Source: Alphaproteobacteria bacterium (GTDB lineage Bacteria > Pseudomonadota > Alphaproteobacteria > Ferrovibrionales > Ferrovibrionaceae). From it: a stretch of 64,000 nt of DNA. Shown one piece after another: positions 32,746 through 35,311 of the stretch. The stretch spans positions 1 to 64,000 of the forward strand of contig CANJGB010000011.1 in the NCBI GenBank assembly GCA_947473805.1, read 5' to 3'. Made by a program: the position numbers and the translations under genes. Under the pieces are notes generated by a model that saw nothing but the letters and a program-made list of their open reading frames with translations, was not told the origin of the DNA and searched no databases. Positions within the stretch are counted from its first letter, which is position 1. Each line of letters begins with the position of its first letter.

Positions 32746-33708
32746 TCAGTTCGGCGGCTCGAAGTTCGAGGCCTTTGCTGCGTTGGCGTAAAGCTCGGCC
32801 TCACGCATCGTGCGCTTGCGGATGTCGGCGGCATCGGCGACCAGCGGCCGGCCACCGGCAGCGTTGTAGCGTGCCACCATGTCCGTCATCGACGATATTT
32901 CCTTCATGGCGTCGATCAGCCGTTGCTGCGCCGCCTTCGGCATGTCGGCCGGGCCCCAGATCGACGAGACCGTATAGGCCTGCAGGTTCGGATAGCCGAG
33001 TTCGACTGTCGTTGGCACGTCGGGCGCACTGGGATCGCGAACCTCATAGGTTGCCGCCAGCAGCCTGACCTTGCCGGCCTCCACATGCGGCCGGAACGTC
33101 TGCGCCAGGTCGAAACCGAGTTGGGTTTCGTTGGCCAGCAGCGCCGTCAGCATCTGCGGCCCGCCACGATAGGTCACCTGCACGGTATCGAGGCCGGCCG
33201 CCTGTTTCAGCATGCCATGCACCAGGGTGGCCGTCGCCGAATAGGAGCCGAAGTTGAGCTTGCCCGGGTTCGCCTTCGCATAGCTCACAAGTTCGGGGAA
33301 CGTCTTTACTGGCACCGTGTCATTCACGGCCAGCACATAGCTGGTCACGAACACGCCGCCGACCGGCTCGAACGCCTTGAAGAAATCGAACGGCGGGGTC
33401 TTGTGGAAAACCGAGGTCAGCGACGACGCGCCACCGTAGTACAGGGTGTAGCCGTCATGCGGCGCCGCCAGTACGCCGTTCGCCGCGATCATCGAGAAGC
33501 CGCCGGGACGGTTATCGACCACGAACGGCTGTTTCAGCTTGGCGCTCAGCTTGTCGGCCACCGCGCGGATCATCACATCGCCCGCGCTGCCGGCAGTGTT
33601 CGGGTACAGGATGGTGACCGGCCGCGCCGGATAGTCCTGCGCCAGGACCGGGACCGACAATGTCATGACGGCAAGCGCCAGGGCGGCGCGCGCAAAACTT
33701 TGCTTCAC
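32746..33708 (-). CDS. Bug/TctC-family periplasmic substrate-binding protein
   Basis: The 320-residue protein has a signal peptide (about residues 1-23, ending PVLAQ) and the Bug signature YPARPVTILYPNTAGSAGD, then VVDNRPGGFSMIAANGVLAA and PHDGYTLYYG. The family binds carboxylates and aromatic acids for tripartite tricarboxylate transporters or acts as orphan receptors. No TctA/TctB membrane partner is in the window, so it is an orphan here. It is convergent with the diiron-oxidase candidate, and may recognise the same pathway's compound. Confidence 0.92.
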   Translation of the reverse strand: MKQSFARAALALAVMTLSVPVLAQDYPARPVTILYPNTAGSAGDVMIRAVADKLSAKLKQPFVVDNRPGGFSMIAANGVLAAPHDGYTLYYGGASSLTSVFHKTPPFDFFKAFEPVGGVFVTSYVLAVNDTVPVKTFPELVSYAKANPGKLNFGSYSATATLVHGMLKQAAGLDTVQVTYRGGPQMLTALLANETQLGFDLAQTFRPHVEAGKVRLLAATYEVRDPSAPDVPTTVELGYPNLQAYTVSSIWGPADMPKAAQQRLIDAMKEISSMTDMVARYNAAGGRPLVADAADIRKRTMREAELYANAAKASNFEPPN

Positions 33709-33938
33709 GGTTTCACTCCCCTCAACTTCTTATGCGTCGACGCTAGCGGCCGCGCTGGACCTGAACCAATGCCAAATTCGCAAGCGCCGATAAAATTTCC
33801 GCATCGCCCTTGACGGATGGAGGAGTAAATACACATCAAGGATGATGGTTATGCCGTGCGACTGCTTTGTTTGAAAACGGCCACGAGAGGCCTGGAAAGC
33901 CCGGATTCGTTGGATTAGGAGCCGGAAACACTGGCGCG
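33709..33938. other. Upstream region of the Bug receptor gene
   Basis: This non-coding stretch contains the minus-strand leader of the Bug gene with a GAGGGGAG ribosome site. A possible plus-strand start with GGAGGAG at 33821-33827 opens only a ten-codon peptide, which I do not call. Nothing else is recognised before the repeat at 33939. Confidence 0.4.
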
Positions 33939-34018
33939 AATAAGCCTAAATAAGCCGAAACAAGCCTGAATAAGCCCAGACAAGCCGGAACAAGCGTGGA
34001 TAAGCCTAAATAAGCCGG
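33939..34018. repeat. Eight-copy 10-bp tandem repeat
   Basis: Eight tandem copies of a 10-bp unit run without a gap. The consensus is AATAAGCCTA-like, with pyrimidine variation at base 3 and variation at bases 1 and 8-10. AAGC is present in every copy at the same phase, and copies 1 and 2 differ from each other at one base. The 10-bp period is close to one helical turn, which would place a binding face on the same side of the DNA. It lies in the gap between two divergent-tail genes, past the Liv-operon terminator. Confidence 0.93.
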
Positions 34019-34025
34019 AGCCCAA

Positions 34026-34057
34026 AATAAAAACCGCCCGGCATTGCTGCCGGGCGG
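34026..34057 (-). terminator. Rho-independent terminator of the Liv operon
   Basis: CCGCCCGGCA (34034-34043), loop TTGC, and TGCCGGGCGG (34048-34057) form a perfect 10-bp stem. On the minus strand it is followed by TTTTTATTTT. It lies 79 bases downstream of the binding-protein stop codon. Confidence 0.9.
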
Positions 34058-34135: not shown

Positions 34136-35311
34136 TCAGTACGCCAGAGCCTCCTGGCCGACCTGCTGCCACTCGCCGTCCTTCACCACGAACATGAAGG
34201 CCGCGGTGGCGCCGGCGCGCTTGGTCGGGCCGAAGCTCACTGTTGGCCCGCCGAAAATGTCGCGGTAGCCGGTGATCTTTTCCATGCCGGCGATGAAGGT
34301 GTCGACATTCAGGTTGGCGCCCGCGTTGCGGATGCCGGTCGCCACCATGTCCATGTTGGAATAGCCGTAGACCGAACCGACGTTGGGCTCCTCGCCGAAC
34401 TTCGCCTTGTACTTGTCCATCCAGGCGATGACGTTGGCGGGCGCGGTCTTGCGGCTGGGCATGATCGTGCCGGCCATGGTGTAGAGGCCGGTGGTCGCGT
34501 TGCCCGGCACCTCGGCCACGGCGCCGATATAGGTGGCCGACGTGCCGACGAAGTCGACATTGGTCCAGCCCATCTTGCGCGCGGTGGCATAGGGCACGAT
34601 GGAGTCGCGCACGATGGTGCCCAGCGCCACCAGGTCGCAATTGGCGGCGCGCAGCTTGGTCACCTGCGCCGTCAGGTCGGTGTCGGTCGGCTTGTTGGTG
34701 GCGAACTCGACCAGCTTCATGTTCATCGCCTTGAGCTGATCGTCGACGCCCTTGCGGATCTCCTCGCCGAACTCGGTGTCCTGGTACAGCGTGCAGACCG
34801 ACTTCTTGCCGCGCGCCTCGACGAAATACTTCAGCGCGCCGCGGATCTGGTCGTAGTAGCTGCCGAGCGCCGCGAACTTCAACTTGTTGAACGGCTCGGC
34901 CATCTCGCGCGCGGCCGTGACCGGGAACATGTTCGGCACGTTCAGCGCCAACTGGTCCTTCATCACGGCATTGTTCTGCGGCGTGCCCAGCGCGCTGACC
35001 ATGGCGAAGACGTTGTCGCGGTTCAGCAGCTTGTTGGCGGCTTGCACGGCGCGCGGGATCTGGTACTGGGTGTCCTCGACCACCAGCTTGATCTTGCGGC
35101 CGTTGATGCCGCCGGCCTCGTTGATCTCCTCCATGCGCATGCGCATGCCGTTGGCGGAATACTTGCCGAACGCCGCCACCGGGCCCGACAGGTCGGTGTG
35201 CATGCCGAGCACGACCTCGTTCTTGGTCACGCCGCGAACGTTCTGGGCCAGTGCCGGCCCCGCCGCGAGCGCCGCGATGCCCAGTGCCACTACGCTAATG
35301 CGTTGCATCAT
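34136..35311 (-). CDS. Branched-chain-amino-acid-type ABC substrate-binding protein
   Basis: ATG 35311 (MMQRISVVALG) gives 391 residues with a signal peptide (about 1-22, ending GPALAQ). The Peripla_BP_6 fold is shown by NEVVLGMHTDLSGPVAAFGK, GINGRKIKLVVEDTQYQIPR and VCTLYQDTEFGEEI. It is the last gene of the operon and would deliver the ligand to LivHMGF. Liv-type receptors bind amino acids, amides, fatty-acid-like or aromatic acids, and the CoA ligase in the operon favours a carboxylic acid. Confidence 0.93.
   Translation of the reverse strand: MMQRISVVALGIAALAAGPALAQNVRGVTKNEVVLGMHTDLSGPVAAFGKYSANGMRMRMEEINEAGGINGRKIKLVVEDTQYQIPRAVQAANKLLNRDNVFAMVSALGTPQNNAVMKDQLALNVPNMFPVTAAREMAEPFNKLKFAALGSYYDQIRGALKYFVEARGKKSVCTLYQDTEFGEEIRKGVDDQLKAMNMKLVEFATNKPTDTDLTAQVTKLRAANCDLVALGTIVRDSIVPYATARKMGWTNVDFVGTSATYIGAVAEVPGNATTGLYTMAGTIMPSRKTAPANVIAWMDKYKAKFGEEPNVGSVYGYSNMDMVATGIRNAGANLNVDTFIAGMEKITGYRDIFGGPTVSFGPTKRAGATAAFMFVVKDGEWQQVGQEALAY

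Follow-up and report, generated by a model that had tools for sequence, protein, structure and literature searches.

An intergenic array of 10-bp units belongs to a lineage-specific, multi-copy class of non-coding loci

The window, by which we mean the whole stretch of DNA analysed, comprises 64,000 nucleotides from an alphaproteobacterium of the Ferrovibrionaceae, and a Pfam run covered four of its genes. The array treated here lies between two of them, a TctC family receptor gene and the gene of a periplasmic binding protein. The features of this region are as follows.

32746-33708, minus strand: TctC family receptor gene (Pfam), its start ~230 bp from the array, on the side opposite the binding protein gene
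33769-33796, plus strand: weak promoter-like match ATGCCA-16-TAAAAT, ~145 bp upstream of the array (9/12; shuffles mean 0.2), different from the family motif described below
33863-33874, plus strand: weak boxA-like stretch TGCTTTGTTTGA (7/12), alone no better than chance
33922-33938, plus strand: left extension of the dispersed block, where similarity to copy C4 begins (genome match, query 123-220 = window 33922-34019)
33939-34018, plus strand: type A array, eight 10-bp units with invariant AAGC (read directly, TRF, lag score)
34034-34057, minus strand: hairpin terminator (10 pairs) followed by TTTTTATTTT, belonging to the neighbouring minus-strand gene
34136-35311, minus strand: periplasmic binding protein gene, Peripla_BP_6 (Pfam), converging on the array

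Direct reading of positions 33939-34018 gives AATAAGCCTA AATAAGCCGA AACAAGCCTG AATAAGCCCA GACAAGCCGG AACAAGCGTG GATAAGCCTA AATAAGCCGG, so the eight-unit tandem repeat with an AAGC core, as described in the initial annotation, is real. The invariant core and variable edges are equally plain: columns 2 (A) and 4-7 (AAGC) do not differ among the eight units, while columns 1, 3, 8, 9 and 10 vary. TRF reports the array at 33939-34016 with a period of 10 and 7.8 copies (score 72), and at a period of 30 gives it a score of 122, the top of 57 rows in the window. With lag-10 identity in 49 of 70 pairs, against 32 for the runner-up anywhere in the 64 kb, it is the strongest period-10 stretch in the window. 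It does lie behind a terminator, as had been proposed, since the hairpin and its TTTTTATTTT (34057-34034, minus strand) come after the Peripla_BP_6 gene. It was also held to be non-coding, and we agree: a 78-aa minus-strand ORF crosses the array, but nothing points to coding, and the out-of-frame 10-bp period together with frequent TAA rules out a coding repeat.

The initial annotation had proposed a search of the whole genome for the unit. With 351 bases around the array as query, such a search (3.31 Mb in 58 contigs, 95% complete) found the block at ten dispersed places, the window copy counted, at 76-100% identity to the array, plus one short match outside it. These type A copies match over the same ~80 bp, with identical unit order, and end near the block edges. 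The eight other in-register copies share 79-94% identity with the window copy, a range from which C17 is left out because it is out of register in the identity table (BLAST gives 76%). Copies C14, C28 and C27 have a derived unit 6 in common. Eighteen or more additional loci repeat this geometry with different words (TAAGG, AATCTAAGC, GAAAC), and the genome holds ~28 loci of types A-D, all non-coding and scattered; locus counts per genome are lower bounds throughout.

Type B, found by pattern search at eleven places, has four or five ATAAGGACCA/GTAAGCTCCA-type units, usually followed by WATCAANNNNTTR, which we take to be IHF-like from its consensus, and then by a T-run without a convincing preceding hairpin in most copies. 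The T-run starts 47-49 bp behind the array in 7 of the 11, at 58 bp in two and at 35 bp in one, with a weak match at 28 bp in the last. Among the four types, GGA recurs in type B units only. Several type B copies, for example L059 and L064, show by eye TGCGC words in 10-bp register just before the TAAGG units. Types C (~20-bp period, AATCTAAGCGG; at C1:304328, C5, C9, C21 and C54) and D (20-21-bp period, GAAAC; at C36 and C50) were spotted by eye and afterwards checked by lag score, with the exception of C1:304328. The genes that flank the arrays agree neither in direction nor in function. In four type A copies the array stops 0-7 bp from the 3' end of a convergent gene.

Absence from close relatives had been named beforehand as a mark of plain slippage; in fact the same word is arrayed in five other genomes of the order. 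Among 18 genomes from the order, six, counting the present one, contain a TAAGC triple at 9-13-bp pitch, with at most 30 matches per genome, against 0-2 per genome and strand for reversed controls, the exception being G008 (3 and 4), which has no matches of the pattern itself. The seven G008 matches of the backwards pattern (CGAAT, 9-13-bp pitch), in genus g5, are the sole large control value, and CGAAT may be one more such word, used in a different genus. TAAGC arrays are found in a sister genus, g4, which is probably Ferrovibrio; the best relatives of one window protein lie in three Ferrovibrio MAGs (62-64%). Beyond the present genome, arrays occur in G003 and G011-G014, whereas G010 and most of the family's other genera lack them.

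We fetched 40 array loci from five g4 genomes. Their TAAGC spacings are 98 of 11 bp and 71 of 10 bp, with some double steps, for a mean of 10.557 bp per turn. Nine sets, comprising 22 of 38 loci, have at least one flanking gene in common between species, and six pairs have both; 'same place' thus rests on one common flanking gene in some sets. In alignments of such pairs TAAGC is kept while spacers and unit numbers have changed. The gene downstream is codirectional at 28 and reverse at 12 of the 40 loci, and at 11 and 12, respectively, of the 23 loci parsed in the present genome, which rules out a 5' leader of particular genes. Across the class, an array spans 50-170 nt per locus, with a word of 5-6 bases every ~10 bases.

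The claim that the array is old, and not a product of fresh slippage, is borne out by its diverged spacers and by the sister-genus arrays beside the same genes. Spacer identity between adjacent units is 0.46 (n=47) in the family of the window array and 0.42 and 0.57 in the sister genus. A search of 2.9 million viral contigs with the same kind of patterns listed 63 stretches (23, 26 and 14; 61 distinct), mostly plain tandem 10-mers, and their adjacent spacers are 0.92 (n=108) and 0.83 (n=84) identical. Neighbouring units of the present arrays are, by comparison, unevenly alike, and we reject both a plain slippage-born repeat and, given ten copies in one genome and TAAGC arrays in six genomes of the order, a slippage repeat of a single locus; fresh slippage is not supported as a general explanation. 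Further afield, TAAGC x3 occurs in 17 of 386 Alphaproteobacteria. Nine TAAGC loci of other genera were read, and we do not count them as relatives because the majority are plain tandem repeats or have nothing to do with the family, and one, L198, coincides with the beginning of an integrase-like gene. Chains of at least five were absent from 19 named loci (217,750 bases). In L198 (G280:C55), 11-bp direct repeats of the GGGTAAGCACGGGGTAAGC kind stand where a gene resembling a tyrosine recombinase starts (a 422-aa ORF, judged by eye), and L184 (G280:C23) has the same kind of repeats beside a sequence like a tRNA 3' end; ARAGORN found no complete tRNA. Both look like integrase arm sites, unlike the family of the window array.

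Motif discovery upstream of 23 arrays of the present genome, on the AAGC strand, returned a ATAGGAATAAATACTTGA-like motif resembling a promoter (log-likelihood 139.7, against 58-60 in shuffles). Allowing up to three mismatches, it has 13 sites genome-wide, against one for the reversed control, and at 11 of the 13 an array follows on the same strand, no more than ~450 bp downstream, three of these being previously unknown loci; the two sites lacking an array precede genes. A second signal is the boxA-like GCTCTTTGACA, which we take to be equivalent to the rrn boxA. Its five exact sites in the genome are all followed by an array whose lag score is above that of all 200 shuffles, again with three new loci, where the base rate for a TAAGS/CAAGS chain of at least three is 2 in 624 400-bp stretches of the window. 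Most arrays of this genome, to which the boxA search applied, carry no exact boxA. PMC4807359 describes an upstream rRNA boxA as preventing Rho-dependent loss of expression from a long non-coding insert. The window copy scores just 8.5 for the family promoter motif, and because its promoter and boxA matches are weak, it is possibly a partial or decaying member; it may otherwise depend on another promoter. Our claims about the array class rest on loci other than this copy.

A comparable signal, gTTCNNNNNNNGTTC with a TATAAT-like centre, lies upstream of the sister-genus TAAGC arrays (log-likelihood 131.7, against 49-60), though scoring above 8 at only 22 of 38 loci. A search with the GTTSCTATAATGTTCY promoter motif gave 55 matches in five of six genomes, against 5 in controls. 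Thirty of these loci were read, and 20 carry an array within 300 bp downstream (11 TAAGS, 9 CGAAS), counted as a TAAGS/CAAGS chain of at least three or a CGAAS-type chain of at least eight; the other ten have neither by these criteria, a few of them looking phased by eye. The second word is itself frequent: ACGAAS x3 has 25-57 matches in each of five g4 genomes and one in G005, with no control matches in 18 genomes. These arrays reach 17 units, T makes up 3.7% of the sense strand in CGAA arrays, and one locus, G012:C33, holds both TAAGC and ACGAAC.

The sister-genus promoter motif carries a LexA-type box. An exact GTTCN7GTTC is found upstream of 6 of 38 sister-genus arrays, and a degenerate box upstream of many more. 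GTTC/GAAC is the LexA consensus in an alphaproteobacterium according to PMC6473078. We read the sequence upstream of lexA in the present genome and in G013, and of recA in G014: GAACN7GAAC precedes both lexA genes, and no LexA-type box was found upstream of recA by the pattern used. At G000:C54:967 (L214) in the present genome the array promoter motif stands without an array and has behind it an exact GTTCN7GTTC and then a gene, and from this locus the own-genome array promoter may be SOS-linked as well.

As RNA, the arrays are little structured on the sense strand, with a minimum free energy per nt of -0.108 (A), -0.145 (B/C), -0.160 (TAAGC) and -0.127 (CGAA), against -0.31 to -0.36 in the flanks. 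The sense strand is less structured than the antisense in 69 of 78 arrays (10/10 A, 12/13 B/C, 32/40 TAAGC, 15/15 CGAA). Against dinucleotide shuffles the z-scores are ~0, and the low structure is therefore due to composition, A-rich and T-poor. Rfam gave no match at gathering score at the tested arrays, apart from one unrelated tRNA in L063, and with these z-scores and this Rfam result a defined RNA structure is rejected.

The window array is, then, one of many non-coding intergenic loci that together form a lineage-specific class. The class is real and old and, as far as the open-licence literature shows, undescribed: a search of open-licence PMC articles found no account of such arrays. Transcription and an RNA product are favoured by the directed promoter motif, by the boxA-like word and by low structure on one strand, and we tentatively put first, at somewhat less than even confidence, the reading that the arrays are transcribed non-coding loci with a row of RNA-level docking sites for a protein. 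Read in the AAGC direction, a complete locus would have a promoter, of the ATAGGAAWAAAWACTTGACA type in the present genome and TTG...-17-GTTSCTATAATGTTCY in the sister genus; an rRNA-type boxA would follow at some loci of the present genome, and then would come a leader and the array of words (TAAGC, TAAGG, CGAAC/G or GAAAC). Once the locus was transcribed, boxA would shield the untranslated transcript from Rho, and this transcript, being single-stranded, would display evenly spaced copies of one word. A multivalent or oligomeric RNA-binding protein could dock on these copies, which would make the array RNA a titrating or scaffolding RNA. Transcription, the function of boxA, the binding protein and its effect are what we infer here. 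A broader conjecture, to which we give somewhat less credence, is a hitherto undescribed class of ncRNA genes, with dozens of loci in each genome that would be driven by a promoter and either shielded by boxA or under SOS control. Each would yield an unstructured RNA that repeats one of several alternative words about every 10 nt, and these RNAs would serve as word-coded scaffolds for a lineage-specific repeat-binding protein.

Several observations tell against an RNA role. Several words behind one promoter would ill suit a single specific protein, the sense/antisense gap in structure largely follows from an A-rich, T-poor word, and downstream genes run in either direction. The signals of the window copy are weak, the sister-genus motif exceeds 8 at just over half of its loci (22/38), a third of the promoter loci read (10/30) are without an array by the criteria used, and most arrays of the present genome carry no exact boxA. 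The 10/11 alternation of spacings and the T-run spacing of type B, moreover, fit helical phasing of DNA as well or better.

The main rival, which we consider rather unlikely, is that the arrays act as double-stranded DNA, with one word per helical turn and protein sites on one face, whether as a nucleoid, partition or topology element or as a gyrase-type wrap; the promoter motif would then be an extra binding site, or transcription would be relevant to topology alone. The initial annotation had likewise suggested binding on one face, and the two main words divide on it. At the 10.557 bp per turn of TAAGC arrays, steps of 10 and 11 bp alternate, with equal neighbours in 30 of 104 cases against 49.5 +/- 4.3 when permuted (0/5000; 38 loci, G007 excluded); a cumulative-phase test in which spacings were shuffled across all TAAGC arrays gave no effect. 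ACGAAC arrays, by contrast, keep strictly to 10.0 (132/132 single steps in 15 arrays), as do those of the present genome (91/91); this pitch does not require helical phasing, and it would spiral around relaxed B-DNA, over as many as 17 units in ACGAAC arrays. The type B T-run, at 47-49 bp (seven loci) or 58 bp (two), shifts by 10, as expected of helical phasing, and lies at 35 and, weakly, at 28 bp in the others; the presumed IHF-like WATCAANNNNTTR stands between array and T-run in most. DNA bending, also raised at the outset, fails as a general explanation: predicted curvature, computed from wedge values, is modest in type A (mean z 1.68), nil in B/C (-0.05) and 1.14 in the sister genus, so that bent DNA is no common feature of the classes. 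A fixed orientation behind a promoter-like motif and boxA is, besides, unneeded for a DNA site.

We think it quite improbable that the arrays are passive or selfish repeats, an ~80-bp block spread by duplication or gene conversion and useless to the cell. The close identity of type A copies within dissimilar flanks (79-94% to the window copy, C17 left out), the subgroup variants of unit 6 in C14, C28 and C27, and flanking genes without common direction or function are all consistent with such spread. It would not account for the coupling to a dedicated promoter motif and a boxA-like word, for words kept while spacers drift, for persistence beside the same genes in a sister genus, or for different words behind one promoter. 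Least probable, and to our minds improbable indeed, is that the arrays are Rho-utilisation or termination modules, in which an unstructured RNA of ~60-110 nt, its words spaced ~10 nt apart, is taken up by hexameric Rho and transcription ends, notably between convergent genes. The unstructured sense RNA fits, as do the four type A copies ending 0-7 bp from a convergent 3' end and the lack, at most arrays, of a hairpin-plus-T terminator close behind, by which lack intrinsic terminators are themselves set aside. Yet Rho favours YC, and the last two bases of the conserved word are GC or AC; C is not above G in TAAGC arrays (0.225 vs 0.247); boxA would counteract Rho; and roughly half of the genes downstream run in the direction of the array.

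Several known systems offer partial likenesses. Cyanobacterial STRRs are tandem heptamers, dispersed and intergenic. In Beggiatoaceae, PMC4679880 describes TAACTGA direct repeats as identical intergenic heptamers, two to six per set and mostly just before start codons, at many dispersed, lineage-restricted places, with a nucleic-acid-binding protein proposed. The present arrays resemble both as short tandem words at many intergenic loci per genome (~28 of types A-D) in a restricted lineage; they differ in their 10-bp unit, of which the core alone is constant, in drifting spacers and several words, in their common promoter and boxA-like signals, and in having no downstream-gene rule. CsrB and RsmZ are small titrating RNAs with many copies of GGA in hairpin loops; here, too, many copies of one short word are candidate protein-binding sites, but there is no stable structure, the words are AAGC- or GAAC-like, and GGA is confined to type B. 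The leaders of CRISPR arrays combine a promoter and boxA with a long untranslated repetitive transcript, much as promoter-like and boxA-like signals precede some of the putatively transcribed arrays here, whereas the present units are of ~10 bases with spacers of 4-6. BIME/RIB elements of E. coli are likewise dispersed intergenic repeats with IHF (cf. the IHF-like site of type B) and gyrase sites, but are built on a palindromic REP core and not on arrays of direct words. The 10-11 bp direct repeats of ParR/parC and other centromere or iteron arrays come close in having about one helical turn per unit and possible cooperative binding, unlike the many copies dispersed along the genome here.

Short dispersed bacterial repeats are usually dismissed as slippage debris. 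One geometry, several words and a common promoter-like signal, found at dozens of loci in two genera and with gene neighbours preserved, make these arrays a testable class of loci. If they act as RNA, they would widen the known forms of multivalent RNA and show boxA at work beyond rRNA and CRISPR; if as DNA, they would offer a natural series of phased sites for studies of wrapping or one-face binding.

The repertoire of words may be wider still. At three promoter-motif loci of G011 (L227, L237 and L242) the motif is followed by AAAAC/AAAC words with an AA periodicity of 10.35-10.55 bases (power 9.2, 13.1 and 5.2), possibly a third word class. Two further loci, L232 and L141, are compound, ATAGGC- or ATACGC-type units at 10-11 bp pitch running into ACGAAC or TAAGC units, and arrays may therefore extend further, and be more modular, than the searched words reveal.
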